Origin: a virus
Virus record (IMG/VR): IMGVR_UViG_3300033153_010635
Coordinates: 1 to 52,033 of that record
Reading direction: 5' to 3' (one strand)
DNA: 52,033 bases
A program made the position numbers and the translations under genes. A model generated the notes under the pieces. That model made no database searches. It was not told where the DNA came from and saw only the letters and a list, made by a program, of their open reading frames with translations. Shown piece by piece: positions 24,302 through 49,234 of this stretch (position 1 is its first letter; each line of letters opens with the position of its first letter).

Positions 24302-25750
24302 CTACAGGCGACCAATATTGATCATTCGCATCCATTTCTTTGGAGCGAACAGGATCGGAGTGCCATACAGAAGAATCATCCACCTGTATGCAGGTGAAAG
24401 AACCGCCAAATCCATCTTCATGAGAGGAGCTAACTGACGGAACGTCAAGACCCGACGGTCCATCTGACCCAGGTAAGCAATCTCAGTAAAAGGAAGAAGA
24501 AAGTTACGGTCTACAGCAACCGCTGTATTGATAGTAGCAGCAATCTGATTAAGGACAGGAACCTTTAGGATTTCAGAGAAATCTGCCGGATTCGCAGAAG
24601 TTGTATCTGGAAGCGTACGGTAAATCCGAAAAAACTCCGGAACATTCGCGCCCAAAACAGCTGCATTCGTAACATCAATAACAAATGCCTGATTGGCATT
24701 AATTGCAGCGATAGTGTGTGTGCGATTGAAATAAACCGGAGCACTCTCACCAAAGCGATTACAAGCCGTGACACAGTACGAGAAATCGACTGTAGCGGTA
24801 ACAGTACCCAACAGCTTATCCCACTCAGCCGAACCAGCAACATCGTACGGAGTTGCTACATTAGCAGTCATACTCGTGGGAGGATTCGGAGCGTTAGGGG
24901 AAGTCGCGGCTGTTGGCGGACTCTTAAGCTGTTTCAGGAACACCGTAGAATTAAAATTCATCGTTCCGGCCTGAGTCTCCATCGACTTGACAGAGAGACC
25001 GACTCGACCTTCCTTCGGCGCAGGCAGGTTCACACGCTCGCGAGGATAGAACTGCTTGGCCATGTCGCTCATAGCCTTCGTACCGACAAACATCTCATCG
25101 GGATACCCGAAACTTTCCACGATGATATTGGAGCCTTCCTCAACATCCTGTTCCTGGACCGGAAGACCTTCCATGTCCAGATATGAGTTGATATCAATCA
25201 ACGCATCCAAACCGTCGAATTGCTCGGCCTCGCCGTCCCACGCCAACGATGCATCGCCGTGATACAGGGAATTAGTGATCTGTGCCAGCAACCAAAGAAT
25301 TCCTTCCTGGTTTTGCTGCGCAATCACATCACCATGAGCGGGTACGACCATCGTCATCGGATGAGAAACTTCACGCTGTGTACACATATACTTAATGTAC
25401 GCAGTACGCCGAACATACGAACTATCCTGGGATTGTCCCAGCTCGCCTTCACGAGTAAAAGCACCAGACTCCGGATCACCGTACGAAGTAACCTGATTGT
25501 ACTCCTCAGCTGTGCTGTATGCAGGAGACTTATGAATCTTCGGCCAAATCTTGAAATGCCTATTTGTGTAAGACAAAACCTTCAGGCTTTGCTCTAGACT
25601 TTGAACTCGAAGCGCAGCTCCACCAGTCTGATTAGTGGTGGCGTAACCAGCTTCAAGAGCTTTTTGAAGTTGGTCAGCAACCGCTTGCCGATCACCTGCA
25701 AAACTTCCGAAACCATTGAGCCCCTCAGGGTAGTGAGAAAGAGAAACCAT
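24302..25750 (-). CDS. Major capsid protein (HK97-type, with an inserted Ig/FN3-like domain)
   Basis: A 482-residue protein in the canonical position after protease and scaffold. The region about residues 60-265 matches a capsid N-arm/P-domain pattern (VTSYGDPESGAFTREGELG, then YIKYMCTQREVSHPM), and the C-terminal part ends with the A-domain-like QLAPLMKMDLAVLSPAYRW. Residues about 280-400 contain a Pro-rich linker and an FN3/Ig-like insert (YCVTACNRFGESAP). The N-terminal KALEAGY...TGGAALR segment (residues 30-48) is shared with the prohead protease tail and with a 145-aa protein at 48797. An AGGAG site precedes ATG 25750. Confidence 0.85.
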   Translation of the reverse strand: MVSLSHYPEGLNGFGSFAGDRQAVADQLQKALEAGYATTNQTGGAALRVQSLEQSLKVLSYTNRHFKIWPKIHKSPAYSTAEEYNQVTSYGDPESGAFTREGELGQSQDSSYVRRTAYIKYMCTQREVSHPMTMVVPAHGDVIAQQNQEGILWLLAQITNSLYHGDASLAWDGEAEQFDGLDALIDINSYLDMEGLPVQEQDVEEGSNIIVESFGYPDEMFVGTKAMSDMAKQFYPRERVNLPAPKEGRVGLSVKSMETQAGTMNFNSTVFLKQLKSPPTAATSPNAPNPPTSMTANVATPYDVAGSAEWDKLLGTVTATVDFSYCVTACNRFGESAPVYFNRTHTIAAINANQAFVIDVTNAAVLGANVPEFFRIYRTLPDTTSANPADFSEILKVPVLNQIAATINTAVAVDRNFLLPFTEIAYLGQMDRRVLTFRQLAPLMKMDLAVLSPAYRWMILLYGTPILFAPKKWMRMINIGRL

Positions 25751-25784: not shown

Positions 25785-27143
25785 CTATCCTCTCCCCGCC
25801 AAACAATTCAAACTTTTTGCGATACTATCAGGAAGAATAGCACTTGGATCACTATCGAACTGCACAATATCCATGGCAGTAATCGGAGAGTTCCCGGACA
25901 TGAAACGTTCATTCATCTCAGCCAAAATCATATTGCGCTGATCAACCTTATCGACGTAGGAATTGGCAGAAACGGATTTCTGCATATTTTCCCCTTCGGT
26001 GTTAGCGTAACGAGTGACTCCTTTAGGACCGCGAGAAGGTTCACGCTCCTCTCGACTAAGAGAATTAACGCTCTTTTGAAGCTCATCATCAATAAGAATA
26101 GCACTATTGTTGATTGCTTTCGCAAGACCAACACTACTTTCCATACGACTTTTGAGCATAAGACCAATTCGTGCCTGCATGTCAAACAACGTGTCCTTCA
26201 CAGATTTCTGCAAATAAAACATGAAGTCCCCTACATCGTAAACACTGTCAGCAAAACTTTTCTGGGAGTTGACTGATCCAGGCTGACCAGCTTCGCTAGG
26301 TCGATATTCAGGTCCAGAGATATTGGGAGACAAATTATAATCGCTCGTACTTGGAGATACTGCCCGAGAATCCCGATTACTTGCACCAGTTCCAGGACCA
26401 GCAGACTCAGTAGCGGACGATCTAGCGGAAGGGGTGGTAGGCGTATATGAATCGTCATCACTGGACGGCGGATCAGGCTTAGGACCAGAAACATTTGGCC
26501 TAATCTGGTGTCCGGGCGGAAGTGTTTTAGCAGAAGTCCCGCCTCTAGTACCACTCATAGAAGGAATACTGCCGCTATGCATAGTAGGCACTTCTGCACC
26601 AATACCAGCGTCTGGTGTACGCGCACTCAAACCAGACCCGAATTTACTTCCTCCACCTTTGTCCATCTCACCACCCTCATTATATGTACTAAATTGACGA
26701 AGTTCTCGACCGGCTTTTTCCAATTCCAGTCCCAGCTGATCTAGCGACTTAGATGTTCCGGATTTAACCGGAAATCCAGTTTGCGCCGCAGAAATCTTGG
26801 AACTGGAGCCAGAAGATTGGTTAGACGGAGGTGGCGGTTTTGGACCTACACTCGGCCTAGTTTGTGTATCATGAGGTTGTACTTTAGTAACATCTCTACC
26901 TTCGCGACCACGATCTGGATTCGACACAGCCGACATAGCATCGCGTAGAATATCGCTTTTCGAGATTTTACTTTTACCGTTGTAATCACCACCAGTATTA
27001 GTATGATTAGCATCACTTGTACTGAGATTTTCTTCTTCAATATTTCCCTGACCAGAATGGGAGCCCCTAGTGATCTGACTCTTGAGAAGCTCATCTAATT
27101 TACTCAGAGAAATGTCGACGTACGCACTGTCTACGCTAGGCAT
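25785..27143 (-). CDS. Scaffold-like protein, 452 aa
   Basis: The start is ATG 27143 (AGGAGG 6 nt upstream). The first 290 residues are Ser/Gly/Pro/Asp-rich and disordered; residues about 290-380 are a long helical segment (DFMFYLQKSVKDTLFDMQAR); the last 50 residues include ITAMDIVQFDSDPSA. The N-terminal HSGQG and TGGDY, the helical segment and the C-terminal DI-x-x-F-[DE] motif are shared with the adjacent 206-aa protein, so the two are paralogues. Position between protease and capsid, length and composition fit an internal scaffold. It may be a protease substrate. Confidence 0.65.
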   Translation of the reverse strand: MPSVDSAYVDISLSKLDELLKSQITRGSHSGQGNIEEENLSTSDANHTNTGGDYNGKSKISKSDILRDAMSAVSNPDRGREGRDVTKVQPHDTQTRPSVGPKPPPPSNQSSGSSSKISAAQTGFPVKSGTSKSLDQLGLELEKAGRELRQFSTYNEGGEMDKGGGSKFGSGLSARTPDAGIGAEVPTMHSGSIPSMSGTRGGTSAKTLPPGHQIRPNVSGPKPDPPSSDDDSYTPTTPSARSSATESAGPGTGASNRDSRAVSPSTSDYNLSPNISGPEYRPSEAGQPGSVNSQKSFADSVYDVGDFMFYLQKSVKDTLFDMQARIGLMLKSRMESSVGLAKAINNSAILIDDELQKSVNSLSREEREPSRGPKGVTRYANTEGENMQKSVSANSYVDKVDQRNMILAEMNERFMSGNSPITAMDIVQFDSDPSAILPDSIAKSLNCLAGRG

Positions 27144-27153
27144 CAAACACCTC

Positions 27154-27774
27154 CTACTCTAGTCCAAGTACATTTCGTGTAGCTTCAGTAACTTCTCCGG
27201 TAGTCTCAAATCGGATGATGTCCGTGGCATCCAAAGTGCCGGCCTGAACGGACTTATGCATAGCCTCAAAAGCCATACCCGGAGAAATCGAATCCTCGCT
27301 TCCACCACCGCGAGAAATAAACCCGACATTGCCGAGGATATTTCCGCCACCGCCAGACATCATTGATTTCAGCATATCGGTATTTTCCTGAAGATTATTC
27401 ATACGATTACTCGTATTCACGACCTCCTTCCCAATCCTACTGACATGCTCACCAACGGACTTGTTGACCTCGATAGACTCCGCTGCATACTCATCTAGCA
27501 TACCACACAAAATATCCTCGAAATCGTCGAAGGACTTCATGACATCGACTACCATATCGTAAAGGACAGGATTAGTTTCCATACCCTTTACAATGGCTGG
27601 ATAGTCAGCGGCATGTTCGCCGAATGATTTCCCAATACGAGTCTTGTATCCACCACTAGGAGTGTATTCACCCCCGGTAGATACATGATTGTATGTGGAA
27701 GTTCCAGGATTGCTTTGGTGCATATCGGACATTTTTCCTTGGCCCGAATGATCACCCTGTAAAATCTGACTCAT
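27154..27774 (-). CDS. Scaffold-like protein, 206 aa, paralogue of the next gene
   Basis: The N-terminus (GDHSGQGKMSD, then STGGEY) and C-terminus (LDATDIIRFETTGEVTEATR) align with the ends of the 452-aa protein, with the long disordered stretch missing. The middle (residues 60-140) is coiled-coil-like (VGEHVSRIGKEVVNTSNRMN). Its position after the protease suggests a scaffold or scaffold-domain partner. GGAG precedes the ATG. Confidence 0.65.
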   Translation of the reverse strand: MSQILQGDHSGQGKMSDMHQSNPGTSTYNHVSTGGEYTPSGGYKTRIGKSFGEHAADYPAIVKGMETNPVLYDMVVDVMKSFDDFEDILCGMLDEYAAESIEVNKSVGEHVSRIGKEVVNTSNRMNNLQENTDMLKSMMSGGGGNILGNVGFISRGGGSEDSISPGMAFEAMHKSVQAGTLDATDIIRFETTGEVTEATRNVLGLE

Positions 27775-27786
27775 TTTGTTCTCCTG

Positions 27787-28560
27787 CTACGAAACTGCGA
27801 AATTCCGAAATACTACATCAGCAATCCCTTCCGAAATCGCCCTAGAATAACCTTTTTTTAATTGGATATAAGCCACCGTTTCAGCTTTAGAAAGTGAAAC
27901 ACTATAAGGATTATCTACTACCTTGGAAGCACCCTCCAAACTTTCAGGCCGTAGCGCAGCTCCACCAGTCTGATTGTTTGTCGAATATCCAGCTGTCAAA
28001 GCCTTTTCTTGTTCGTCTTCTTTATCTTTTTCATCTTCCCATTCCTGGGAATAAAGTGATTTACGAATCTGAGCCCAAGTATTTGTGTTAATCGGAGCCG
28101 GAGTGATTGCTACATCCTGCACCCAACACTTGACAATTTTGTTGCCAACTCTCCTCTTCACTTTTCCCTGGACAGAGAACCCGACATTTCTTTCAGCACC
28201 ATCAGTTGCATCAATCGAATTCATCATATTCCATATGTCGTCAGCGACTTTGTTTTTATCAAACAATCTGCCTTCAACATAAAGACCATCTTTGCGAACT
28301 TGTGCTTTAGTTGGCCACCCAACTTTATTTTCGAAACCAGGTTTATGGTCATTATTGAAGTAGCCGTGCTCCATAAAGTACGACACGTCAATACCGGCCT
28401 GATCCACTATCTCACCCTGTAGATCTTTGTGAGAAGTAGATGCGATTCCTTCGATGTACCTGTGCTCTGTACCAGTCTTGGCATCTTTCCGAACTTCAGA
28501 CTTGGATATCGGCATCCAAAACTCAAAATTCTCAACAGTTGTATCTAGTGCAGGTTCCAT
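27787..28560 (-). CDS. Prohead maturation protease (HK97/S78-like)
   Basis: A 257-residue protein. Residues 35-165 follow the prohead protease pattern: IEGIASTSHKDLQGEIVDQ, then FNNDHKPGFENKVG, GLYVEGRLF, NVGFSVQGKVKRR and VQDVAITPAPINTN. The conserved His (around residue 72) and the G-F-S-x-QG serine region (around residue 129) are the likely catalytic elements. The C-terminal about 75 residues extend beyond the protease core and contain KALTAGY...TGGAALR (residues 186-204), identical in pattern to the capsid N-terminus and possibly recognised during assembly. It lies directly upstream of scaffold and capsid. Confidence 0.85.
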   Translation of the reverse strand: MEPALDTTVENFEFWMPISKSEVRKDAKTGTEHRYIEGIASTSHKDLQGEIVDQAGIDVSYFMEHGYFNNDHKPGFENKVGWPTKAQVRKDGLYVEGRLFDKNKVADDIWNMMNSIDATDGAERNVGFSVQGKVKRRVGNKIVKCWVQDVAITPAPINTNTWAQIRKSLYSQEWEDEKDKEDEQEKALTAGYSTNNQTGGAALRPESLEGASKVVDNPYSVSLSKAETVAYIQLKKGYSRAISEGIADVVFRNFAVS

Positions 28561-29362: not shown

Positions 29363-30867
29363 CTTGCAGTCCTTTTTGATCTAGCTGACATCTGCTCTTT
29401 AAATCTTGCAACTCTTTCCTTCCTTTTGCTTTCCAATGAAGACTTCCTATCTCCTCCAGCCTGATGCCTCAACCATTCATCCAACGGCACATACCTAATT
29501 TTCCCTGTTTTAGGGTTTCTAATAAAATGACCTTGCTCTATACCTGGAGACTGAACAGGCTTTCTAATAGCAGAACTCTTCAAAGCCTTTTTGACATCTC
29601 TTAAAGTCCTAACTTGGCCCCTCTCAGGGGTTGTTGATATGGATTGCCTTCGTTGCTTCTGTCTATGTTCGGAAGAACTAGGTGTCAATACATTTCTTCG
29701 TCCACTCATAGGATCTTTATCAGGTAACTCAGGAAAATCACTTTCAACTTTACTTCCATCTCCAGTATTTTTTTCTCTTAAACTTCTTCTATTTTTACTA
29801 GATTCTTTTAACATTGAAGAAGTAGCACTAATTCTATGTTCTGGAGATTCTTTACGAACTTTTTCTAAGCCTGCTCTCTGCTTTGACTGCTCAAGTATTA
29901 AATCATTTTGTTTTCTTCCTTCATCTAAATTATGATTTATCTCTCTCATTAACCTGGAATCGCTGCCAGAAGACATAGATTCTTTACGAAATTTCTCTTG
30001 ACTTGGTCTCCCAACAGCAGCTACCTGAGCAAAAGAACTCCTAGCAGCGTCTTTTCCGGAAGGCTTACTTACCGTACCAGAAGAAGCGGGAGTACCAGAT
30101 AAGCCAGTACTCCCAGAAGGACTGCTAGAACCTCTAGAAGAATCACTGGAAGCTCCAGCGACTCTATTAAAAACCTCTGCGGGGGCTTGTTGTCTTTGAG
30201 GTCTCGCAGTCTCAGCATTTTTGGCATAAGCATCTCTTGTTCTTGCTAACGCAGCATCATTCTCAGCCCTGTTTTCAGCCCTTTCAACAACTTTTTTTTT
30301 GACTTCGCTCCTAGCTCTAGTTGCCGCATCTCCTGCAACTTGAAACCCGGCTGCAGCAACGTTTTCTCCGCCTGGTCGAGCAAACATACCTCCCGCTGCA
30401 GCACCACTCTCGTAAGCACTTTTAGATAATCGGTTATCGAGAGCATTCAAACTTTTCCCGAGACTACCCACAGAAGAAACGACTTCGGTGCGAATTATGG
30501 GAGTTTGATAACTGGCTATTGTCTTATGAGCAAGTATGAACTTCTCTTCCTTAGAAAGTCGCAAACCTGTTGTGGAGATTCCCGACTGAGTTTTACCGAG
30601 CATTCCAGGAAAAACAGCATTGATGATCTGCTTCTCCTCGGGAGAGCAAGTACCCACTTTCTGGTTATTGGCTTTAGCAGTCGTTAGCTTATCAATAATG
30701 TCAACCAATTTACTAACAACATAGTCATACGCCAAAGAGCCGTCAAGATACCTACGAATAAGCGGGTTCGCGCCACCTTGTACATGAGATAGAGGGACAG
30801 TCATCTTGATGCTTTTTTCCAAAACATCAGGATTAATCATAAACGTTGGTTTTCTTACTATATTCAT
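29359..30867 (-). CDS. Large, mostly disordered virion-operon protein, 502 aa
   Basis: The start is ATG 30867 (GAGGGG 7 nt upstream) rather than the GTG one codon earlier. The first 150 residues are ordered (RRYLDGSLAYDYVVSKLVDI); the remainder is Ser/Arg/Ala-rich, highly charged and probably disordered, with short repeats of SS and KKR. The position between a giant InPase-headed protein and the capsid module suggests a protein packaged inside the head. No family recognised. Confidence 0.6.
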   Translation of the reverse strand: MNIVRKPTFMINPDVLEKSIKMTVPLSHVQGGANPLIRRYLDGSLAYDYVVSKLVDIIDKLTTAKANNQKVGTCSPEEKQIINAVFPGMLGKTQSGISTTGLRLSKEEKFILAHKTIASYQTPIIRTEVVSSVGSLGKSLNALDNRLSKSAYESGAAAGGMFARPGGENVAAAGFQVAGDAATRARSEVKKKVVERAENRAENDAALARTRDAYAKNAETARPQRQQAPAEVFNRVAGASSDSSRGSSSPSGSTGLSGTPASSGTVSKPSGKDAARSSFAQVAAVGRPSQEKFRKESMSSGSDSRLMREINHNLDEGRKQNDLILEQSKQRAGLEKVRKESPEHRISATSSMLKESSKNRRSLREKNTGDGSKVESDFPELPDKDPMSGRRNVLTPSSSEHRQKQRRQSISTTPERGQVRTLRDVKKALKSSAIRKPVQSPGIEQGHFIRNPKTGKIRYVPLDEWLRHQAGGDRKSSLESKRKERVARFKEQMSARSKRTAR

Positions 30868-30869
30868 CA

Positions 30870-31205
30870 CTACACCCCTCGCACAAAAAACGTTACAGAT
30901 TTTCTGGTCTTGCTCATTCGCTCCCTTCCTGGATCATCTCGCTCTGAAGGCTCTGACAAAATATGCATAGGCTTCGGAGAAGTACCTTCGGCAGCTTGTG
31001 TTCCTAATTTTGGAATACCAAACCTAGCACTTGCCGAAGGATTACTCTTACTACTGCCTTTCCTTTTTTGTTTTTTAAGATCTTTACGAGTTTGTTTATC
31101 TTCTTCAGTAACACGAGGATTTTCAGGACGATCAAAAGAATACAGTTCGTCCTCGTCTTTATCCTCTTCTTCAGATCCCACAGACTTCTGTATACAAAAA
31201 ATCAT
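30870..31205 (-). CDS. Small charged protein, 111 aa
   Basis: The start is ATG 31205 with GAGG 6 nt upstream; a TTG at 31217 overlaps the previous stop but has no ribosome site. An acidic block (GSEEEDKDEDELYSFDRPE) is followed by a basic block (RKDLKKQKRKGSSKS). It has the polyampholyte look of DNA- or capsid-interacting accessory proteins. It is coupled to the neighbouring genes. Function unknown. Confidence 0.6.
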   Translation of the reverse strand: MIFCIQKSVGSEEEDKDEDELYSFDRPENPRVTEEDKQTRKDLKKQKRKGSSKSNPSASARFGIPKLGTQAAEGTSPKPMHILSEPSERDDPGRERMSKTRKSVTFFVRGV

Positions 31206-31213
31206 TCTATACC

Positions 31214-34200
31214 TCAAGTTTCCGAGTACCAGGTTAACCTATTCTGCATTTCTCGTGCATTCTCTAGACGTCGTTTTTGATCCAACTCAACACTCTTTCT
31301 AACCTCCGAAGAATCTACCACATTAGCACCAAAAGACGCCATGAACTTCTCTCTGTAGCCCCTATTGTCGATCATACTACGCCCAGCCATTGCAGTACGA
31401 GCACTCTCGTGAGTGTCTTGGTAGTACATGGATTTATCTACTGCCCTTTTATTTCCTGCTTTTTCAGGCACAGTGAGATTACCAGAAGGCTTATTACTCG
31501 TCTGTGGTGGTTGCGCTCCTAAAGCAGAACCGGCCACCACAGCTGACGCTAATTTTGCATGGTGCTCGTTAAGAGTTGCCTCGGATCTCGGATTTATATG
31601 CGCAAAATGATCACCTGATAGATTATGAAGATAGTGTGCCGCGTGTGCTTCAGAGAGATTTTCACCAGCCTTGAAATGAGACTCAGCAATATCTCTATAT
31701 CGAACACCATGAGGCAGCTTAGTAGGACGCGCAGTAGGGACATCTGAAAGATTATTGACACCAGTACTACGAGAAGCACCAAAAGCCCTTTCCGACTTGT
31801 TTTTATCAAATTCCTCTTTTCCGCCTTCAACCATCTTAATATGCTGAATCCCAGCCCCTACATTACTAGCGTACTCCCTACTCCCTGGGTCCATTATAGT
31901 TGCAGCCCTCATATGGTGGTAAGCATATTTAACATGACCGTCTAATACATCGCTTTTGTATCTATCCTGTTTTTGACCTTCCAAATAAGACGATTTTGTA
32001 AATCGATTGCTTTTAATCAATAAAACCGAACGAGCAGATCCGTAATTTCCGGATTTGATTATATCATCCAAAGCCTTTCTAACATGTTCCCAGGAACTTT
32101 GAGTGAACAAACTAGGACTTTCCAGCCCTCTAAGAAGATCTGTGGTCCCTCTCGTAGGTGCTCCTGTACCGCGCTTACCTATCTCTTTTCCGGAATATAT
32201 CGTGTGCTGAATAACTTGAGCGGACAAGTGTTGCTTAGCTCCCTCGTGCGCTGGCATTGTGCCTGCGTGAGAAACGATAGAACCATCTTCGCGCTCTCTA
32301 TGCGTTTCGCCAGCGTTCATATGGTGAGCTATGGCATGGCCGAGCAGCTCTTTGTGAGGACCGTCACTCAACTTATCATGAACACTCGACAACTCTTTTG
32401 CTCTACTTTCGTGAGCCGCTGCAAAATCACCGTGAGAAGCGTTATCTGGAGTAGCCCTTGGATGATCTGGATGAAGAGGGGTTTTGCCGAAAGAATCGAC
32501 CTTTTGCACTTCGTTGTGGATCGCTCCATGGTGATTGCTGTGCTTTTCAGCATCCATCCTATCATATTTATTATACGCTCGACCCTCGCTACGTTGTTTA
32601 TGAAAAGCAGCTGATCCCAAGTGTTCCAAGTGCTCTTCAGAATTCGGATTCGTTACAGAAGCTGCAGCCAGCGCAGACACATGGTCTTTAGCTGCATTTG
32701 CCTTTCCAGGACGCAAACTTTCATGAAGATTTTGTTTTCCTGGAGCTGCTCTTTGATCTGTCGGTCGCATACTAGTGACTTCAAAACGTCCTTTTCTCCC
32801 GAAAACTTGTCTTCCTTCTTCATCTACTCTACGACGAACAGCAGGACCTTTTCTACTTTCAGATCCAGTAGTCTCAGATCTCTGCCTGGTCATTTCCTGG
32901 TGGCCGGCTTTTCTGGGTCGAATGTGTACACCAGGTTCTTTTTTAGAGGATACTTTAAAAGGAACTTTAGTCGCTTTTTTCTCTTCAGGCTCTTTCAAAA
33001 GAGCTGCTTTAGCAGCTTTAAACTTTTTAGGATCTACTGGATCCAAAAGAACAGCACCGCGATTTTTTATATCTTGAGACCGAACGGCTTTAGTAAGCAC
33101 ACTAATAATCGATTTCCTAATATTATCAGTATTTTGATCTGCCATGGTAAAACCTTTTATTAATGGAGGAGAGACATCTTTCACTGTACGAAGAGCACTA
33201 CCAGGTAAAGAAGGAGGAACCCCTCTAGGTCGAGTAGTTCGATCAGAATACTTAACTGTTCTAGAAAGACTAGACGAAGGAGAAGGAGAAGAAGAAGGAG
33301 AAGGAGAAGGAGAAGGAGAAGGAGAAGGAGAAGGAGAAGGAGAAGGAGAAGGAGAAGGAGAAGATTGGATGACAACTTTTCTCTTCACATCTCTTACTGT
33401 CCTCGTCACCCCAAGATCGACAGGAGGATTAGCGTGAGTATGTGCCATCACAGATTCTGCTAATTTAATATGATGCTCAGTAGTAGGATTACCGGCTTTT
33501 GCACTGTGAAAAGCATGTTCGCTTTGCTTTGCAATTTTTCCTGCCCTGTGTCCAACTATACTAAACGCAGCTGATTTTGCATCCCTAGCTGTCTGATTAT
33601 GTATATTTTTGCTGTATTTATTAACTTGGTGGTTAGAATCCAATTTTCTAGGTTCGGAAACATTTTTAACGTTAAGATCTGTTGATGCCTGGTATGCTCT
33701 TTTTGATAAATCTGTGTTTTTGCCAGGCGTTGATTCAGGACGAGAATGCGCATCTAATGCTTGCCTGTGAGAGTTATAAGCTCTTATATGATTACGAGCA
33801 GTCTCATCATGAAACACATGATCACGACCACTAAGATTACCATCTTTGGATTTATTTTCATGCTTCAACGCTTCTCCGAAATGATGAGAAGCTAATTTCA
33901 CATGATCATCCATAATGTCTTTCTTTTTTAGAGATTTAAAAAACATTAATTTAGCACTTCCACCCTTTAAAATATCTTTTGTGCTAGGTATAGAAACATA
34001 CGAACTGGAAGACAAACGCTTTCCTTTATGTGTTTTCAACATAACTTTAAAAGCATCCAAAGGAATTTCCCTAATTCCCTCGATGTGATCCGTTCTATTG
34101 TAATTACCAGCATACATTTTATAGGCTTTTTCTTCCGAGGTAAAACCCAAAATAACCTTATCTTCATCGAATTTCTTGGTTTTTACGTCAATCTGCCTAA

Positions 34201-34564
34201 CCACAAAAACTTTATCGGAATTCTTGTTTGGACCAACGAACACATCCAAGTGTTCACCGTCGTAACCTTCAGTTCCACGAATATATCCATAGTCGCAATT
34301 CATCTTGGACGACCACTTCTTTCCATCGGAATCAGTCCCACTCCTCGTAGAACCTTTCTTATTCTCAATAGATATCGGAAATCCTTGAAACCAATATTTA
34401 TCTTCTAATCTGTAACTTTTTCTTACAGATGGGAATAGTCTCTTGTCGCCGACCATTTTAAGCAAAATCTTTCTATCTTTAGCCTTCGCCGAAGATAATG
34501 CAGTGCTTAGAGAAATGTCCCCTGACTTGTACGAGGACAGCAAAAAAGATAAACTTTCACTCAA
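31214..34564 (-). CDS. Giant protein with N-terminal inorganic-pyrophosphatase-like domain and His-rich helical repeats
   Basis: A 1116-residue protein starting with TTG 34564 (overlaps the portal stop as TTGA; AGAGG upstream). Residues about 50-180 match the pyrophosphatase-like domain found in phage polyvalent proteins: NCDYGYIRGTEGYDGEHLDV (the G-x-DGEHLDVFVGP signature) and IREIPLDAF. A Ser/Pro tandem repeat follows (about residues 400-435), then several helical modules rich in H-x-x-x-A-x-x-H repeats. It is encoded between portal and scaffold, so it is probably head-internal or injected. Whether the pyrophosphatase-like fold is catalytic is unknown. Confidence 0.65.
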   Translation of the reverse strand: MSESLSFLLSSYKSGDISLSTALSSAKAKDRKILLKMVGDKRLFPSVRKSYRLEDKYWFQGFPISIENKKGSTRSGTDSDGKKWSSKMNCDYGYIRGTEGYDGEHLDVFVGPNKNSDKVFVVRQIDVKTKKFDEDKVILGFTSEEKAYKMYAGNYNRTDHIEGIREIPLDAFKVMLKTHKGKRLSSSSYVSIPSTKDILKGGSAKLMFFKSLKKKDIMDDHVKLASHHFGEALKHENKSKDGNLSGRDHVFHDETARNHIRAYNSHRQALDAHSRPESTPGKNTDLSKRAYQASTDLNVKNVSEPRKLDSNHQVNKYSKNIHNQTARDAKSAAFSIVGHRAGKIAKQSEHAFHSAKAGNPTTEHHIKLAESVMAHTHANPPVDLGVTRTVRDVKRKVVIQSSPSPSPSPSPSPSPSPSPSPSPSSSPSPSSSLSRTVKYSDRTTRPRGVPPSLPGSALRTVKDVSPPLIKGFTMADQNTDNIRKSIISVLTKAVRSQDIKNRGAVLLDPVDPKKFKAAKAALLKEPEEKKATKVPFKVSSKKEPGVHIRPRKAGHQEMTRQRSETTGSESRKGPAVRRRVDEEGRQVFGRKGRFEVTSMRPTDQRAAPGKQNLHESLRPGKANAAKDHVSALAAASVTNPNSEEHLEHLGSAAFHKQRSEGRAYNKYDRMDAEKHSNHHGAIHNEVQKVDSFGKTPLHPDHPRATPDNASHGDFAAAHESRAKELSSVHDKLSDGPHKELLGHAIAHHMNAGETHREREDGSIVSHAGTMPAHEGAKQHLSAQVIQHTIYSGKEIGKRGTGAPTRGTTDLLRGLESPSLFTQSSWEHVRKALDDIIKSGNYGSARSVLLIKSNRFTKSSYLEGQKQDRYKSDVLDGHVKYAYHHMRAATIMDPGSREYASNVGAGIQHIKMVEGGKEEFDKNKSERAFGASRSTGVNNLSDVPTARPTKLPHGVRYRDIAESHFKAGENLSEAHAAHYLHNLSGDHFAHINPRSEATLNEHHAKLASAVVAGSALGAQPPQTSNKPSGNLTVPEKAGNKRAVDKSMYYQDTHESARTAMAGRSMIDNRGYREKFMASFGANVVDSSEVRKSVELDQKRRLENAREMQNRLTWYSET
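33278..33363 (-). repeat. Hexanucleotide tandem repeat encoding Ser-Pro dipeptides
   Basis: Eleven perfect AAGGAG units (33295-33360 on + strand) plus imperfect flanks encode a Ser-Pro run in the giant InPase-headed protein. The unit is a multiple of three, so slippage would change linker length without breaking the frame. Confidence 0.9.
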
Positions 34565-37500
34565 TGTAAAGACCTCTGAGGAAGCGAGTCTAAATCAGCG
34601 ACATCTTGTTGATCTTGTGGTTGCTGCTCTTGCTCTTGTGGTTGCTGTTGCTCGGCCTGCATTTGTGCCTGAGCCTGTTCCTGAGCTACCTTATCCTGCT
34701 CTCTTTGGTACTGTTTATCTTCCTGAGCAGTCTCGAACTCCCTATCTGCATTGGACTGATTTACTTCCATTTGCTTGTACTGTAAAAATGTTGCGTTCAA
34801 TACAACATCACCGTCATCTAGAGGATCCAGTCCCTCATCTACCCGAACCTCATTCACTGTCTTGTGGGTAGTTACCTCGGTTTGTCGAAGCTCCTGAGCC
34901 TCTTTCTGAGTAAGCTCATCCAAACCCACAAAATCAAGAAACAACATATCATCGAAAGGAGAAATAATATGCTTTGTAAGTGTTTTTGCGTAGTATCTAA
35001 GGAGAGGTCTAAGTCCTCTATCCTTAGATTTCTGGAGCTTGTGAACAGCCTGGGTATCAAATTTGATGTTGGTTTGTTCCGCGCCTGTAAACTCGTACCC
35101 AACCTCACCAGGATCAATACCACACACAGAACAAGTAGTGCGAATTAAGTACTCCAACCAACGCTGATACTCCATCTCCAGATTTGTTTTCTGGAGATTA
35201 ACATACTCGATAGCATCAGACATCATCACAGGGGTGCGAAATGCATTCTGAGTACCGGTAACGTTCGCCTGCCACTGTCGCTTGAATGACTCTAAGTAGT
35301 CGTCATCTACGTTGGCCCCTTTGATATTCAGCAAACCCTTGGGCATAGACCCTTGAGTAAAGGCATTAAGATTATATTGCTCAGCATACAGATGAGCAGT
35401 AATAATTAACACCAACATCTCAAAGTTGGAGACACCGTAGCCATTCCTGTAGATATCCGTCGTAGGATTCATCATACAGAACGCCAATTCCTTATCTCTA
35501 TATAGAGTCTGAATCTGTCCTCGAACCACCTGAACAAACTTCACAGGACCAAAACCCTGAGCTGGGTAATATCTCCTTCTAGGATCTAATCGAGGATTAA
35601 AAGAAGTATCTCCACCATAAAGACTATCTTGAGTTTCATTCTGGAATCTACCAGCTCTAGAACTCCGATATTGAATTGGATCGAAACCCCAGTCCTCGTC
35701 TGTAGCTGCTATGCGAATAGTAGCTCCATCAATGGCGAGAAATTCAAAAGGCTTTCCCGACAAATCTGGTACTATTTCGAAGCAATTGTGGCTAACAATC
35801 CCGTTGGCTAGATAGCTGTTATCCTCGTCCACTTCCATGTTGAACACTGGATACTCGTAAACTTCTTTGGAAGTAACACTGGATACTACTATATAAAAAT
35901 AATCATCATCCTGAATGAACGGTTCTCTGGATCTCTTTGGAGTAGGTACATCGAAATATCCTGATCTAATCAACAATTCGCGTAAATGAATCCCACTAAG
36001 ATTAGCTATGTATCGCTCTGAATTATGTCGTGTATAATCCGCATATTCCCAAAGCGTTTCCGGCTCAGTAACTTTTCTTGCGTAAATACCTAAGCCAGAG
36101 AGCAGTATACGAATACCACTAAATAAATTTGTAGACGTAGTACTAAAACTTGTCTGCTTGCCAAACGATCCATCTCCTAACAGATAGGCGATGATAAAGG
36201 ATTCCCTGGATTCCTTAGGAGACTCATACAACCATTCAGGAATGAGTAGATTACCGGATCCCCTTCCAAAATGCTCCACAAAAAAATCACGTAAACTTTT
36301 TGAGTAGGCAACTATGGATAAAGTATGCTTATCTTCTACCGGTAATATCGTGTAATTTACCCCTAAATCATCCAAACACTCAGTTATGCCTTCTACTAGA
36401 TCATCATCCTTGCCCGAATCTGCCAGTGAAAACTGAGTAATTGACTTACCTATACTACCCTCAGCACAATAAGCCCCACAAAGAAACGCAAAAGATTCAT
36501 CGAAATCTACGTTTTCATTACAAGGAGCTGAACTAATTTCAAAACCTAGCTTATCAGCTACGGATTTAACTTGCGAAATTAATTCAGGTCCATTACGTGT
36601 ATATTTTCCGTTAAGAATCTTATAAACAGTTTGCTGATGTACTCCCACTTTCTCAGCAATATCCGAATAGGGAATATTCGGATACTTTCGTTGCTTACTT
36701 TCCGGAAATACGCAAAAATCTACTGGCGACCCTTCTTCAATTGTAGGTTTTGGATAAACCAAATAGTGTCCCGACTTGATATCTTTTGCTTCTACCCACT
36801 TAGGTTTTATACCCTTATCTCTATACTGAGAAAAGCGAAAATAAGGGTGTGTGACTACTAAAAATGGATGCCCATCTGTAGCTGTTACCTTGATACCACC
36901 ACTACTAATTGTGTATAAACTACCTGTGTAGTTTCTACGCATAGTTTCGGTAACAACCCGCGACCTTCCATTCTTGTGAGTACGTACCTCCATGCCAGAA
37001 CATATGTTTTCTATGGGAATATTAGTTCCATCCCCTAATTCGATTAACGTACCAGCGGGAAGACACCCCTGGTCAAAAATAAGCAGGTCCTCTATGAATT
37101 TTTTTGTAAATGTATCAAGATCGTCTCTTTTATCCTTTCCTTTATCTCTCCCACAATTCATCAAGAAATTTTCGATGTCTAAAATAACTTCTTTTTCGGA
37201 ATCATTAAAAACATGCTCTTTGTCTTTGTGTTTTATCTCAAAACCTACGCCTGTAGATCCCTGCATAAGTCTTGAAGGAGAACAAAAAGAGACAACCTGG
37301 TCTTGTCTAGTTTTCACAATAGCGGAAATAATAGAGAGATTCTTGTGTAGACGTCTAAGAACATCGTACGAAAGTGATATTCTACGATCTTTGTACCCAA
37401 GCGAATAAACAAGAGACATCGGATCTGTAAAAACAGACTTTGGAAAACTGTCTCGACTAGAACTCTTACTTCCGCGCCTACCTTTCAAAAGTGTCAAATT

Positions 37501-37587
37501 CCCTTGAGGTCCAGATTGGACTTTTTCAGGACCGGTGGATATCATCCTTGGGCCTGTGTTTTTCTGCTCATCCCTCAGACGAATCAT
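34561..37587 (-). CDS. Portal protein interrupted by an intein
   Basis: A 1008-codon frame. Residues 1-174 and 602-1008 form the portal (581 residues when joined), with portal-type features such as VKTRQDQVVSF, KKFIEDLLIFDQG|CFEIV, NPTTDIYRNGYGVSNFEMLV and a Gln/Glu-rich C-terminal tail. Residues 175-601 are an intein. It precedes the InPase-headed protein and the capsid module. The portal forms the 12-subunit ring through which DNA is packaged and ejected. Splicing would be required to restore its helix-rich core. A GAGGAAG site lies upstream of ATG 37587. Confidence 0.82.
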   Translation of the reverse strand: MIRLRDEQKNTGPRMISTGPEKVQSGPQGNLTLLKGRRGSKSSSRDSFPKSVFTDPMSLVYSLGYKDRRISLSYDVLRRLHKNLSIISAIVKTRQDQVVSFCSPSRLMQGSTGVGFEIKHKDKEHVFNDSEKEVILDIENFLMNCGRDKGKDKRDDLDTFTKKFIEDLLIFDQGCLPAGTLIELGDGTNIPIENICSGMEVRTHKNGRSRVVTETMRRNYTGSLYTISSGGIKVTATDGHPFLVVTHPYFRFSQYRDKGIKPKWVEAKDIKSGHYLVYPKPTIEEGSPVDFCVFPESKQRKYPNIPYSDIAEKVGVHQQTVYKILNGKYTRNGPELISQVKSVADKLGFEISSAPCNENVDFDESFAFLCGAYCAEGSIGKSITQFSLADSGKDDDLVEGITECLDDLGVNYTILPVEDKHTLSIVAYSKSLRDFFVEHFGRGSGNLLIPEWLYESPKESRESFIIAYLLGDGSFGKQTSFSTTSTNLFSGIRILLSGLGIYARKVTEPETLWEYADYTRHNSERYIANLSGIHLRELLIRSGYFDVPTPKRSREPFIQDDDYFYIVVSSVTSKEVYEYPVFNMEVDEDNSYLANGIVSHNCFEIVPDLSGKPFEFLAIDGATIRIAATDEDWGFDPIQYRSSRAGRFQNETQDSLYGGDTSFNPRLDPRRRYYPAQGFGPVKFVQVVRGQIQTLYRDKELAFCMMNPTTDIYRNGYGVSNFEMLVLIITAHLYAEQYNLNAFTQGSMPKGLLNIKGANVDDDYLESFKRQWQANVTGTQNAFRTPVMMSDAIEYVNLQKTNLEMEYQRWLEYLIRTTCSVCGIDPGEVGYEFTGAEQTNIKFDTQAVHKLQKSKDRGLRPLLRYYAKTLTKHIISPFDDMLFLDFVGLDELTQKEAQELRQTEVTTHKTVNEVRVDEGLDPLDDGDVVLNATFLQYKQMEVNQSNADREFETAQEDKQYQREQDKVAQEQAQAQMQAEQQQPQEQEQQPQDQQDVADLDSLPQRSLH
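35785..37065 (-). mobile_element. Intein in portal protein, 427 aa, LAGLIDADG homing endonuclease and HTH
   Basis: It starts with Cys (TGT at 37063-37065) and ends SHN before Cys+1 (35782-35784). Block A is CLPAGTLIELGDG; block B has TDGH (in KVTATDGHPFLV); block F/G is VFNMEVDEDNSYLANGIVSHN. Two LAGLIDADG motifs (FLCGAYCAEGSIG near residue 195 of the intein; AYLLGDGSFG near 293) indicate a monomeric homing nuclease. An HTH (YSDIAEKVGVHQQTVYKIL) sits between. All splicing residues are present, so it is probably active. Confidence 0.9.
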
Positions 37588-38359
37588 TATTTACTTCCTC
37601 TTCTATACAGGGGTCCACTTCTTCATACAACCGCGAAGAAGATAAAATCTTTCCTTTCTGAAAAGCGGCCCAAACCAACTCTATAATATCCATCTTAAGA
37701 TCGTCTACCGAACCATTTTGAGACAATCCATAACTTTTATAATCAACTGAAAAATTTAGGACGGAATTTTTAAAATAATCGTCGTAAATTCCATTTATCT
37801 CTTTTCCATACCCAAGTTTTTTCAACACATATTGGATATCTACTAATTTTTTGTAGTCTATTTGCTTATGTACACTAGACCTGACCATATCAATCCAGGT
37901 TTCAAGCGCGGAACCCGGACAAGACGGATCTCCGAAATGGTAGTGCCCATACAATCCGCTTTCGTCTCTAATACCTAGCTCCCCCTTCAGGTACATCCAA
38001 ATACCAGACACAGCCTTCCTTTGACTAGAAGAAGGATCACCGGCACCCATAACCCACCTGGGATGATTGAACAAACCAGCGACTCCTACATGGACAGACT
38101 GGGAGATCGGAGCGTTGTAATCATCTACAAAATTGATATCCTCGCCAGTCCTGAAAACCTCAACTCGACCACCAGAATCTTTTAATGGTGTATGGTCCAC
38201 ATAGTAATTATACGGAATATTGGACGAAGAAAGCTCACCGAGTATTGAAGAAGTACCCGTTTGATGCACTACTACTCTGTTAAAAGCCGATTCTTCATCA
38301 AAATACTCTTCGTACGGTTGCTTAAGATTAGTTATGAAAATATAGTCTTGCCAATTCAT
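37568..38359 (-). CDS. N-acetylmuramoyl-L-alanine amidase (amidase_2) with C-terminal peptidoglycan-binding domain
   Basis: A 263-residue lysin. Zinc ligands expected of the amidase-2 fold are visible: H32 (VVVHQTGT) and H139/C147 (GHYHFGDPSCPG). The C-terminal about 80 residues resemble a PG_binding_1 repeat (VDIQYVLKKLGYG, then GIYDDYFKNSVLNF). It could be the endolysin or a virion-associated wall hydrolase. No signal peptide. It overlaps the portal start by 20 nt and the upstream gene as ATGA, an odd position for a lysis gene unless the holin is upstream (see 40244-40941). Confidence 0.8.
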   Translation of the reverse strand: MNWQDYIFITNLKQPYEEYFDEESAFNRVVVHQTGTSSILGELSSSNIPYNYYVDHTPLKDSGGRVEVFRTGEDINFVDDYNAPISQSVHVGVAGLFNHPRWVMGAGDPSSSQRKAVSGIWMYLKGELGIRDESGLYGHYHFGDPSCPGSALETWIDMVRSSVHKQIDYKKLVDIQYVLKKLGYGKEINGIYDDYFKNSVLNFSVDYKSYGLSQNGSVDDLKMDIIELVWAAFQKGKILSSSRLYEEVDPCIEEEVNNDSSEG

Positions 38360-39360
38360 AATACAACCACAAATTTTATTGATTTTTGTGTACGTTGCAT
38401 ACCTTCTTCCATCTTATTTAAAGCATCGTAGTACCTGGAATGCTCAGTCAAATGGTCCATCGCTATTTCCTTAGCGACTTCTTCAGAAGGGGTATGTTCT
38501 TTTTCTACCTTCGTTCCTTCACGAAGCTGATTTTGATCAAAATCATCAGGGGATTTACCGGAAGCCAGTCCCCCCTGTATTTTTTCCTTATCTTTTTTAT
38601 CTAAAGTAGTTCCAGGACTCCCCCACATACCACCAGTAACAAACATTCCTGGTTCAACATTCTTGGATTGATTGGATATTGGAGAAGATGATTTCAACAT
38701 ATCCGTCTTTATATAAAATAAAGAACGGGCAAATAAATGCTCTTGATGCGCCATTTTTCTACCCTTTTCCCGCTCTTTATGTACAGTTTTCTTTTTAACA
38801 GCATTGTCCATATTCTCTACATATGAATGGAGATGTTCAGCATCTATTTTCGACATAGAACCATCACCAGAATGAACAATATAGTGTCGAACGCCTTTAC
38901 TATCTTTAGAAGAACCCATTATCGTGTGGATAGCACCATTATGGTCCACGAGTTGCTTAGTTCTGTTGTGATTGCCTCTAGTGATCCCTGTATGATGGTA
39001 TTTATCAAGACCTTCAAGAGGATTACTTCCTTGAGAGTTTTGCTGCCCTTGTTGATTACCACCTACAACCAACATTTGATTTTGATCACTAGTACCAGTA
39101 TCTGTATCAGAACTTTTCTTACGTTTTTCCACTTCTTTGTGGGTGTTTCCGATGTTTCCAGAAGCCGCGCCTTTACCAGTACGATCTTTCATTTCTGTTT
39201 CGTATACCTGCGCCCCGCCTGGGCGTTGACCCAAAATCTTTCCTCCCCTACTTCCTCCACCAGATTTAGAAGAAGTACCTGCGGAAGTAGGGGAAGCTCC
39301 TGGGAGATGAAATTTACCACCAGCAGGAGCAGCGACAGCTTTAGAAACTATGAATTGCAC
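38356..39360 (-). CDS. Virion-operon protein with C-terminal DUF5661-like domain, 334 aa
   Basis: The start is GTG 39360 with GGAAG upstream. Residues 1-120 are Gly/Ser/Gln-rich and disordered. The C-terminal 60 residues (DDFDQNQLREGTKVEKEHT, then EVAKEIAMDHLTEH and YYDALNKMEE) match the DUF5661 pattern, an uncharacterised domain common in phages. The middle contains a His-rich stretch (YHHTGITRGNHNRTK). Function unknown. Confidence 0.7.
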   Translation of the reverse strand: MQFIVSKAVAAPAGGKFHLPGASPTSAGTSSKSGGGSRGGKILGQRPGGAQVYETEMKDRTGKGAASGNIGNTHKEVEKRKKSSDTDTGTSDQNQMLVVGGNQQGQQNSQGSNPLEGLDKYHHTGITRGNHNRTKQLVDHNGAIHTIMGSSKDSKGVRHYIVHSGDGSMSKIDAEHLHSYVENMDNAVKKKTVHKEREKGRKMAHQEHLFARSLFYIKTDMLKSSSPISNQSKNVEPGMFVTGGMWGSPGTTLDKKDKEKIQGGLASGKSPDDFDQNQLREGTKVEKEHTPSEEVAKEIAMDHLTEHSRYYDALNKMEEGMQRTQKSIKFVVVL

Positions 39361-42900: not shown

Positions 42901-43383
42901 CTAGGCTTTCTTCTTTCGGCGTCCACGAGCACTACGACGACGCTTGGGCTTGGGAGCCTCTTCCTCTTCTTCCTCTTCTTCCTCTTCTTCTTCCTCTTCT
43001 TCCTCTTCTTCCTCTTCTTCCTCTTCGGGCTCGGGCTCGGGCTCGGGCTTCACCTTCGCCGGCCGACCACGCTTAGCCTTAGGCTTTTCAGTTGCCTCGG
43101 AAGTCTTCACCTTCGCGGGACGACCACGCTTAGCCTTCGGCTTTTCAGGCTCAGGTTCAGGCTCAGTTTCGGGAGGATCATCGAACTGACTATCGAACCA
43201 CAGAACGAGAACTTTCTTCGCCGGATTGAAATCCGCAGGAGCATTCAGGACATTTGCATTCGCAATATACTGCATTGTGACGTCACGTACAGTTTCGTAC
43301 GTATCCCCATCAGTAGACTTCAGAACGAGAAGCTCCTTATTTGGGGTACCGCCGAGATGCTTCTTAAGTTCACCTACTTTCAT
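42901..43383 (-). CDS. AT-hook / poly-glutamate DNA-binding protein, 160 aa
   Basis: Residues 1-70 are a small folded domain (MKVGELKKHLGGTPNKELLV). Residues 75-115 contain two copies of KPKAKRGRPAKVK, the AT-hook motif that inserts into the minor groove of A/T-rich DNA. A run of about 23 glutamates follows, then a basic end (PKRRRSARGRRKKK). The combination resembles nucleoid-associated proteins that alternate DNA-binding and acidic segments. It has its own promoter (43445-43473) and terminator, so it may be strongly expressed. It may condense or protect phage DNA or titrate host proteins. Confidence 0.78.
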   Translation of the reverse strand: MKVGELKKHLGGTPNKELLVLKSTDGDTYETVRDVTMQYIANANVLNAPADFNPAKKVLVLWFDSQFDDPPETEPEPEPEKPKAKRGRPAKVKTSEATEKPKAKRGRPAKVKPEPEPEPEEEEEEEEEEEEEEEEEEEEEEEAPKPKRRRSARGRRKKKA

Positions 43384-44770: not shown

Positions 44771-46366
44771 CTACCCCTCTGAAGAAAAACCTAAACTATC
44801 CAAAATTGAACCGTAAATTTCTGGAAGTCTCTCGCAAAACTCTCTCGCCAATGGAATCATTACTTGACGCATTTGCGGATGGGCAGGTTGAGCAGCTCGT
44901 AGACTAAAAATGTGTGCCCACTCTCTCATGTTAGCAGTCACAATTAACTCTGTCTTTAGAGAATTAGGAAGGACACTTCGTGCTTCCTCAGGTTTTGCAC
45001 CTTCCTCTATCATCTTAGTATAGACTTCCTCACACTCCTCCATATGCGAAAACCACAATTTATATAAAGTACTCTGATGCTCCCAAAAAGGAACTTCGAC
45101 AAAAGCCACTTCTCCAGAATAATTGCAGTACCGTGAACTGTTGTGGACAACAAACCCATCCGCTACATAATTATGATAGGGAGCTTTCATTTCGATATCG
45201 TAAGTACTTTCCTCACCAACCGGCTCAATACTGACAATAACATCTGACACAGCTTTCTTTCCAACATGCCATCCGTGGTGAGCTACGCTATGGCAATGGA
45301 CACACAATTTTACGAGATTGTCATCAAAATTATTTTTTGGATCCTCGTCGATATGATGAACCTCTTCGCCTGGGTCTCCACAAATAGCGCAAATAAATTT
45401 CTCTCTTAACCTGTTAACTCCGTAACTTCTAGACACTCCACCCTTCCAATTACTATTTTCCTCCCCTTCTCCGTTATTATGGTGATTCTTTCGTAAAGAA
45501 TCCCCCTGACTAGCAACAGATGGATGGTCATACTCCGTTAAACCTTTATTCCACACTACCCTTCCAGAATCGTATTGCGCTTGGTTAGTTCTACGTGCCT
45601 TCTCTAGGGTTTCCTCTGTGTGATTTCTTTGATACTTTTCCTTATTTTTGTCGTTCTTGTGCTTCTCGAAAATACCTAATCTATGTAAACGATCCAAAAC
45701 TGATCTATAAGGAGCGCCGTGTTTATCAGCGATCTCTTGAGGAGATAAACTACGATATTCATCCTCTAAAATCTCATCATCTATTCTCAACAAACAAGAA
45801 CGACCATTAACCAACACTTGATCGCCAACCTCCAAATCACCCAAAACAGAAAACTCTCCGTCCAAACATAGAAAACGATGATTTTCAGTACAAATGATCT
45901 GATAGCCTCGGCTAGTAGTCACTTTGAAAACCGGCTGCACACCTTTATAAAAAATATTTTTTATCTTATTTCTAATTAACACATTATCTTTACCTACACT
46001 ATTGAGATGTAAAGTTTTATTATGCGTCTTACCGTAACAAGTAGATTCTCGATCATACAAATCTTTAATAGTATACTTCTTGTGTACCTTAGTACTGCCC
46101 ACTACACACTCTTGGCTAAAAGATGCGATTCTATGTCTCACAAGTTCGTGTGAAACTCCCCGATCAACAATAAATCGGACGGAAGCGCTTTTGTGCTCAA
46201 TTACACTCCAATGTCCCCTCTTAGTAATCATTTTCACAAACTTTTCAGCACTTTTCTTAGTAATCCTTTTTTCAGATTTATAACAAACCCTCCCAAATCT
46301 CTCGATATCAGCAAGTGTGCTTTCTGGAAAACATTCTATCTCGTAACTTGGTTGTACAATTCGCAT
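44771..46366 (-). CDS. thyX: Flavin-dependent thymidylate synthase ThyX interrupted by an intein
   Basis: A 531-codon frame. Residues 1-86 plus 410-531 form a 208-residue ThyX. The signature RHR-x7-S is split: RHRIASFSQE is followed after splicing by SSRYCNYS. Other conserved features are EHKSASVRFIVDRGVSHE and NSLKTELIVTANMREWAHIF. ThyX makes dTMP from dUMP using FADH2 and methylene-tetrahydrofolate, and serves as a stand-alone dTMP source. The intein (residues 87-409) interrupts the catalytic loop, so splicing is essential for activity. It lies upstream of small unknown genes. Confidence 0.93.
   Translation of the reverse strand: MRIVQPSYEIECFPESTLADIERFGRVCYKSEKRITKKSAEKFVKMITKRGHWSVIEHKSASVRFIVDRGVSHELVRHRIASFSQECVVGSTKVHKKYTIKDLYDRESTCYGKTHNKTLHLNSVGKDNVLIRNKIKNIFYKGVQPVFKVTTSRGYQIICTENHRFLCLDGEFSVLGDLEVGDQVLVNGRSCLLRIDDEILEDEYRSLSPQEIADKHGAPYRSVLDRLHRLGIFEKHKNDKNKEKYQRNHTEETLEKARRTNQAQYDSGRVVWNKGLTEYDHPSVASQGDSLRKNHHNNGEGEENSNWKGGVSRSYGVNRLREKFICAICGDPGEEVHHIDEDPKNNFDDNLVKLCVHCHSVAHHGWHVGKKAVSDVIVSIEPVGEESTYDIEMKAPYHNYVADGFVVHNSSRYCNYSGEVAFVEVPFWEHQSTLYKLWFSHMEECEEVYTKMIEEGAKPEEARSVLPNSLKTELIVTANMREWAHIFSLRAAQPAHPQMRQVMIPLAREFCERLPEIYGSILDSLGFSSEG
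45140..46108 (-). mobile_element. Intein in ThyX, 323 aa, HNH homing endonuclease
   Basis: It begins with Cys (TGT at 46106-46108) and ends VVHN before Ser+1. Block B has CTENHRFLC, and block F/G reads YDIEMKAPYHNYVADGFVVHN-like. An HTH (LSPQEIADKHGAPYRSVLDR) and a NUMOD3-like segment (WNKGLTEYDHPSVASQGDSL) precede an HNH nuclease core: CAICGDPGEEVHHIDEDPKN, then CVHCHSVAHH. This differs in nuclease type from the portal intein. All splice-site residues are intact. Confidence 0.92.
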
Positions 46367-48162: not shown

Positions 48163-48486
48163 TTAATTTCCTCCCGATTTTCCTGGATGACGACTTAGAC
48201 CAAACGTCTGTCGTGCATTTAAAGTTGCTTCAAGGAGTTTATTAAACCAACTCATGTATGTCTCCCAAGCCTTATTGAGAGTGGATTCCAGATCCTCGAT
48301 TATACAAAACCCGCAATGCAGATTTTCTTCGCTAAATGGATCAATAAACACTCCAACTCGGTATCGTTCGTTAACCTCACAATTTACCAAAAAACACACA
48401 GGACCAATAGTTGTTTTTGCTCGTCTATCAGTACCCTCCCAAACTGCTTTTGGCCAAATATTCTGAACTGCTTCTAAAACATTCAT
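48163..48486 (-). CDS. Protein of unknown function, 107 aa
   Basis: A mixed alpha/beta protein with an N-terminal helix (LEAVQNIWPKAVWEGTDR), two Cys close together (HCGFC) and a helical, basic C-terminus (ATLNARQTFGLSRHPG). No family recognised. It is located in the leftward operon between zinc-ribbon and RHH genes. Confidence 0.6.
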   Translation of the reverse strand: MNVLEAVQNIWPKAVWEGTDRRAKTTIGPVCFLVNCEVNERYRVGVFIDPFSEENLHCGFCIIEDLESTLNKAWETYMSWFNKLLEATLNARQTFGLSRHPGKSGGN

Positions 48487-48796: not shown

Positions 48797-49234
48797 TTAT
48801 CTAGAATACCAATCTCCACAAGCCTCTCGATCTTTGTTTGGTACTTTTCGCTTCAAACAACTTTCTGCTTCATCGTAAGATCCCTCATCCAAATATCGAC
48901 AATTATCACAAGTGTGAATATAAGTTTTTTCTTCTTTAAAAGTTGTTTTACATACTGGCCAGTATTCACACCCATTTAATTCACAATTATCACAAGAGGG
49001 AGTAGGGAGTTTTCTTCCTGCAAGCATTTTTTGTAGATGAGGAAACTCACTTAAGTCTTCAGGATGCTGAAATGCCACTCTAAGACCTAGTTTAATAGCT
49101 TCACAATTCAGAGATTCGATTCGCATATTAGCACCTGTTGTTTTATCTACATCATAACCTGCTTCCAATGCTTTGGCTAGCCAAGCAATATTTTCTTGTC
49201 GCTCAATTTCTTTTTTCGTTTTTTCGTTACTCAT
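48797..49234 (-). CDS. Cys-rich protein with capsid-type N-terminal motif, 145 aa
   Basis: Residues 20-52 (AKALEAGYDVDK, then TGANMRIESLNCEAIKLGL) repeat the pattern of the major capsid N-terminus and the protease C-terminus. Residues 80-145 carry four Cys pairs in Cys-x-x-Cys-like spacing (CDNC, NGCEYWPVC, CDNC, CLKRKVPNKDREAC), probably two zinc sites. GAGAGG precedes the ATG. It is the second gene of the leftward operon, away from the virion genes. Because of the shared motif it may be targeted into the capsid. Confidence 0.65.
   Translation of the reverse strand: MSNEKTKKEIERQENIAWLAKALEAGYDVDKTTGANMRIESLNCEAIKLGLRVAFQHPEDLSEFPHLQKMLAGRKLPTPSCDNCELNGCEYWPVCKTTFKEEKTYIHTCDNCRYLDEGSYDEAESCLKRKVPNKDREACGDWYSR

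Follow-up and report, generated by a model that had tools for sequence, protein, structure and literature searches.

A capsid-type N-terminal motif in a small cysteine-rich protein of an uncultured SPO1-like phage: a possible leader for prohead cargo

Why should a small cysteine-rich protein encoded among regulatory genes begin in the manner of a major capsid protein (MCP)? The question is posed by a protein of 145 residues encoded in a 52,033-nucleotide stretch of DNA (the whole of which is here called the window). This stretch is part of the genome of an uncultured phage, and the MCP that it encodes shares 37-41% identity with those of the SPO1 group. A sequence-only reading of the window had noticed that a motif, KAL-x-AGY...TG...ESL/QSL, recurs in the MCP, in the prohead protease and in the 145-residue protein, and this is the case: the copies read K30-ALEAGY-ATTNQ-TGGAALR-V-QSL (K30-ALEAGYATTNQTGGAALRVQSL), K186-ALTAGY-STNNQ-TGGAALR-P-ESL (K186-ALTAGYSTNNQTGGAALRPESL) and K21-ALEAGY-DVDKT-TGANMR-I-ESL (K21-ALEAGYDVDKTTGANMRIESL), respectively. 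The third copy starts at residue 21 rather than at residue 20 as first given, a position within the range seen in related phages, where most of the aligned MCPs have it at residues 18-36. Its second half lacks one residue relative to the MCP and protease, with TGANMR in place of TGGAALR. The gene had also been placed, correctly, among non-virion genes, its neighbors being HTH and CopG-type regulators and an intein-bearing ThyX. It looks real, given an ATG start codon (49232-49234) preceded at a distance of 8 nt by the ribosome site GGAGAGG.

Table 1. Features of the window bearing on the shared motif (positions in the window; phi-x-K-[SA]-phi, site pattern with the predicted cut after the lysine)
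Feature	Position	Strand	Basis
145-aa Cys-rich protein P0001, MCP-type N-terminal leader	48797..49234	-	sequence, profile match
Predicted 21-residue propeptide MSNEKTKKEIERQENIAWLAK, predicted cut between K21 and A22	49172..49234	-	fits phi-x-K-[SA]-phi; 9row MCP cut; cut here inferred
Shared motif KALEAGYDVDKTTGANMRIESL, residues 21-42	49109..49174	-	profile match E=1.0e-6
Cys-rich region, residues 81-139	48818..48994	-	8/9 cysteines, two CDNC units
Major capsid protein, SPO1 type	24302..25750	-	phrog_752 1.9e-89; 37-41% identity to SPO1 group
MCP motif copy, residues 30-52, predicted cut between K30 and A31	25595..25663	-	profile match, 9row MCP start, site pattern
Prohead protease	27787..28560	-	phrog_1028 1.7e-58
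Protease motif copy, residues 186-208, within disordered linker	27937..28005	-	profile match, AlphaFold model
Protease K167-S168, possible auto-cut site	28057..28062	-	K invariant, S near-invariant
453-aa scaffold/core-like protein	25785..27146	-	5 phi-x-K-[SA]-phi sites vs 0.27 expected; position as SPO1 gp3.3
206-aa scaffold/core-like protein	27154..27774	-	5 phi-x-K-[SA]-phi sites vs 0.11 expected; similar 209-aa protein, same place in L220
23 bases identical to 27953-27975	25611..25633	.	exact sequence match
23 bases identical to 25611-25633	27953..27975	.	exact sequence match

A profile based on 22 motif copies from MCPs and proteases, with the 145-residue protein left out, gave exactly three matches in the window, namely the MCP (E=1.7e-23), the protease (5.5e-17) and the 145-residue protein (1.0e-6). 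When the profile was rebuilt without any window sequence the 145-residue protein scored 23.8 bits, against a best score of 12.6 bits among 200,000 shuffles of that protein. Among 177,635 distinct PDB sequences the only matches of the first profile at E<=10 were SPO1-type MCPs, and its matches in 97 other phage records (50 + 47) were confined to MCP or protease frames, as assigned by size and position, with no third motif-bearing protein found by profile in those records. Of two odd motif frames that were inspected, one is a protease with an intein-like insert; the other, an 87-residue frame in G049, is no third protein but the first piece of a split MCP. By profile match, then, the presence of the SPO1-type MCP N-terminal motif in the 145-residue protein is confirmed.

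The sharing of the motif between MCP and protease is not special to the window phage, since it is seen over the aligned capsids and proteases of a whole clade: in SPO1, LysYB1, EalM132, A9, LP65, Stab22, Moonbeam, LfeInf, PMS2 and Goe26, and also in the 85-95-kb phages Mecenats66, PHB04 and Jeremy. The clade takes in SPO1-like, Brochothrix, Lactobacillus and Staphylococcus phages in addition to the 85-95-kb group, and the idea that the motif is a private invention of the window phage was rejected. Because the 97 records yielded only MCPs and proteases, the sharing by sequence extends over the clade, and only the third copy sets the window phage apart. The PHROG 1028 protease profile also matches MCP residues 22-75. 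Within a genome the MCP and protease motifs are 60% alike, compared with 47% when permuted, which is consistent with co-evolution and is not taken as proof, as the permutation ignores phylogeny. In a related phage (L220:503-2479, G049) the MCP reading frame is broken just past its N-terminal motif, an intron being one possible cause, and the prohead protease of another (G048, L221:2148-3854) carries an apparent intein (CFPGDVRV...VAHN) beside the conserved SPVNT segment.

A clue to the function of the motif comes from staphylococcal phage 812, whose MCP of 463 residues reads ...DVVK24-S25FQTGYG... and whose chain in PDB entries 9row, 9rox and 9roz comprises 439 residues, the first of them being S25, which follows immediately on the motif lysine K24; the 9row chain start is the depositors' mature N-terminus, read from the deposited sequence rather than from the map. 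If cleavage between K and S is the rule of the protease, then such sites ought to abound in scaffolds, since these have to be destroyed. In 14 phages the scaffold ORFs next to the MCP have, between them, 80 phi-x-K-[SA]-phi sites where 3.9 are expected, and control patterns with R, E or D at P1, or with T/G, D/E or L/V at P1', showed little or no enrichment. An order-swapped control was also raised (30 versus 3.8 expected), probably because strings such as LSKSL fit both patterns. In the Listeria phage A511, Cps is cleaved near K23-S24, a precedent that was not used as evidence. Within the window there are 28 phi-x-K-[SA]-phi sites in the 4,673 residues of the head genes and two in the 7,881 of the tail genes (p=1.6e-10); the remaining region holds three in 2,820 residues, one of which is L-A-K21-A-L of the 145-residue protein, where such a site would arise by chance with a probability of about 9%. 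The motif, judged by these patterns, most likely contains the cut site of the maturation protease, phi-x-K-[SA]-phi with cleavage after the lysine, which in the 145-residue protein would fall within L-A-K21-A-L. This putative rule draws on many genomes and one deposited mature N-terminus, separately from the protein that it is here applied to.

The scaffolds carry the five-residue site alone, whereas the MCP, the protease and the 145-residue protein share about 16 further residues after it. The downstream half should therefore have a job other than being cut, and the conserved AGY...TG..(L/M)R.(E/Q)SL segment is probably a docking element; we infer that its simplest use would be to dock onto the shell, the scaffold or the portal, or to engage a protease exosite. 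In the protease itself an AlphaFold model built from 18 sequences (the window protein and IMG/VR rows) places a domain at about residues 10-156, a disordered linker at 157-221 and C-terminal helices at 225-254. A motif in the modeled linker, together with an invariant K167, would be as expected of an auto-cut tail, since a cut at this location, either at K186 or at K167-S168, would separate the C-terminal helices and the motif segment from the protease. As the site at the motif, Q-E-K186-A-L, is without a hydrophobic residue at P3, K167-S168 may be the main cut of the window protease.

Set against this background, the 145-residue protein has the layout of an MCP leader: some 20 charged residues predicted as helix (a low-confidence model for residues 1-21, of about the length of MCP propeptides in the clade), the putative cut site at K21, and then the docking-type segment AGY...TG..(M/L)R.ESL. 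The rest of the protein is of another kind. HK97-type capsid (PHROG 752) and serine protease (PHROG 1028) domains are absent, no PHROG family matches at E<=0.001, and the cysteine-rich region is possibly a metal-binding domain. It scores 21.8 bits (E=1.8e-4) against Pfam DUF3716, a likeness that falls just below the curated cutoff of 22 and was not counted as membership. An AlphaFold model of the protein alone was poor (mean pLDDT 46) and was not used as evidence. The reading that we favor, with somewhat more confidence than doubt, is that the protein is a cargo of the prohead. Its MCP-like leader would join the shell or the scaffold during assembly, the prohead protease would remove residues 1-21 at maturation, and the cysteine-rich part of 124 residues would stay within the head, perhaps to be delivered along with the DNA into the next host; that it serves there as a metal-binding factor active early in infection is a guess. 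The suggestion in the sequence-only reading of a tag for targeting or for protease recognition thus fits best, in the refined form of a cut site followed by a longer docking segment.

Packaged and trimmed cargo is the best explanation given two precedents. The internal proteins of T4 are targeted by N-terminal propeptides of 10-19 residues that gp21 removes, and even foreign proteins can be directed into the head by the targeting sequence on its own (PMC9026906). In phage SPN3US the head proteins gp225 and gp45 lose propeptides of 20-24 residues and the protease removes the propeptide at its own C-terminus (PMC10052503). Like T4 IPI, IPII and IPIII, the 145-residue protein would be an otherwise unrelated small protein with a short N-terminal propeptide ending in a site for its own prohead protease (K21-A22, here by sequence pattern only), and T4 cargo, too, is not conserved between related phages (PMC9026906). 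Unlike the T4 proteins, its leader resembles the MCP and the protease, the predicted cut follows a lysine where the gp21-type site ends in glutamate, and the conserved segment extends beyond the cut. Moreover, the T4 proteins are described as basic, whereas the predicted mature part is acidic (pI 5.2, net -5) and cysteine-rich, and for this reason it was not filed as a T4-type internal protein; the resemblance would be one of mechanism only. With the SPN3US/phiKZ head substrates (gp245, gp175) it would share a short (20-24 aa) N-terminal propeptide of the kind found on minor head proteins, in a system where serine is favored at P1' and the C-terminal protease propeptide is auto-cut (PMC10052503), although the phage group and the residue at the cut differ. 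Its closest likeness in motif is to the SPO1-type MCP and protease pair (PHROG 752/1028; Herelleviridae), to which the window's own MCP and protease belong and from which it differs in having neither domain. DarB and the other Dar antirestriction proteins of P1 reach the capsid by means of an N-terminal signal (PMC9024508); compared from the literature alone, they are of very different size and have no known motif in common with it.

The cargo proposal stands on one motif match and, as no homologue was found, on one environmental-contig sequence. Searches for homologues gave none in phages (tblastn), none in viral contigs (only MCPs among the matches checked), none in genome contigs (a peptide-pattern scan whose reach is close relatives) and none in the related phage records, where the matches of one such search lay in MCP- or protease-sized frames. 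Against it, too, count the lack of any protein of its kind in the 97 relatives, the location of the gene outside the head cluster and the degenerate downstream half of the motif.

The same location among regulators, together with the shared segment itself, would suit an unpackaged regulator or decoy that mimics the MCP N-terminus, binds scaffold, MCP or protease before assembly, and so holds up or prevents head assembly or premature proteolysis, or changes head size. Capsid-remodeling proteins of satellites, such as SaPI CpmB, do mimic parts of scaffold proteins. An inhibitor would, however, be expected to lose the cut site, and a good one is retained at K21-A22; SPO1-like relatives also do without such a protein. 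We regard this explanation as unlikely, if the strongest of the alternatives.

Less probable still is that a fragment of a head-gene leader ended up, by fusion or drift, on a small gene unrelated to it, where it is functionless or only sends the protein to degradation. Its occurrence in a single contig and its degenerate second half are what one would expect of such a fragment, and the DNA bears on the matter. The MCP and protease are exactly identical over 23 bases, as had been stated, and use the same codon at 12 of 21 shared motif residues (7.4 expected, p=0.03), which is a modest sign that these two genes have recently exchanged DNA. The gene of the 145-residue protein, by contrast, shares no DNA with either motif copy, the longest exact run being 7 nt; a recent DNA copy was therefore rejected, and the proposal that a module had moved into this protein is left unsupported, with DNA similarity absent and no intermediate. 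That K-A-L-x-A-G-Y, TG, R and ESL are kept in spite of this suggests selection rather than recent fusion. Chance convergence, in which an amphipathic helix ending in KALEAGYD happens to be followed by TG..MR.ESL with no link to the head, gains something from a motif that is short, is a single case and has its function read from sequence, but is equally improbable in view of a score of 23.8 bits where no shuffle exceeded 12.6, a profile that matches only MCPs in the PDB set, and no protein other than MCP and protease with the motif in the 97 related records.

A broader and more tentative proposal, to which we give slightly less than even weight, is that the N-terminus of SPO1-like MCPs is a portable head address, composed of propeptide, cut site and docking segment, that gives the protease entry to the prohead and can be acquired by unrelated cargo, of which the cysteine-rich protein would be the first example recognized in the clade. 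In that case phi-x-K-[SA]-phi followed by an MCP-type segment would provide a sequence rule for finding head-loaded cargo across a large group of phages, including those of Staphylococcus, Listeria and Bacillus, and the head entry, self-excision and substrate choice of the prohead protease would become directly testable.

Several other genes of the window deserve mention. A protein of 1116 residues (31214-34564) has an InPase domain (PF18823, 6.6e-43), matches PHROGs labeled DarB-like antirestriction and minor head protein, and contains seven phi-x-K-[SA]-phi sites where 1.1 are expected; it is a candidate internal, co-ejected head protein. Three head-cluster proteins of unknown family have the site pattern near the N-terminus (29359-30870, K19; 30870-31217, K11; 38356-39360, K7) and may also be substrates of the protease, each with a short propeptide. 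The portal protein (34561-37587) has an intein at about residues 175-602 (TIGR01443, intein C-terminal, 1.8e-6), with portal matches on both sides, and the ThyX thymidylate synthase (44771-46366) likewise bears an intein (Intein_splicing 2.2e-15) with a weak HNH endonuclease match. Two genes downstream of the 145-residue protein, a 107-residue protein (48163-48486) also has a candidate site near its N-terminus, W-P-K13-A-V. Elsewhere in the window, a 160-residue protein (42901-43383) combines AT-hook-like PKAKRGRPAKVK repeats with a long glutamate run.
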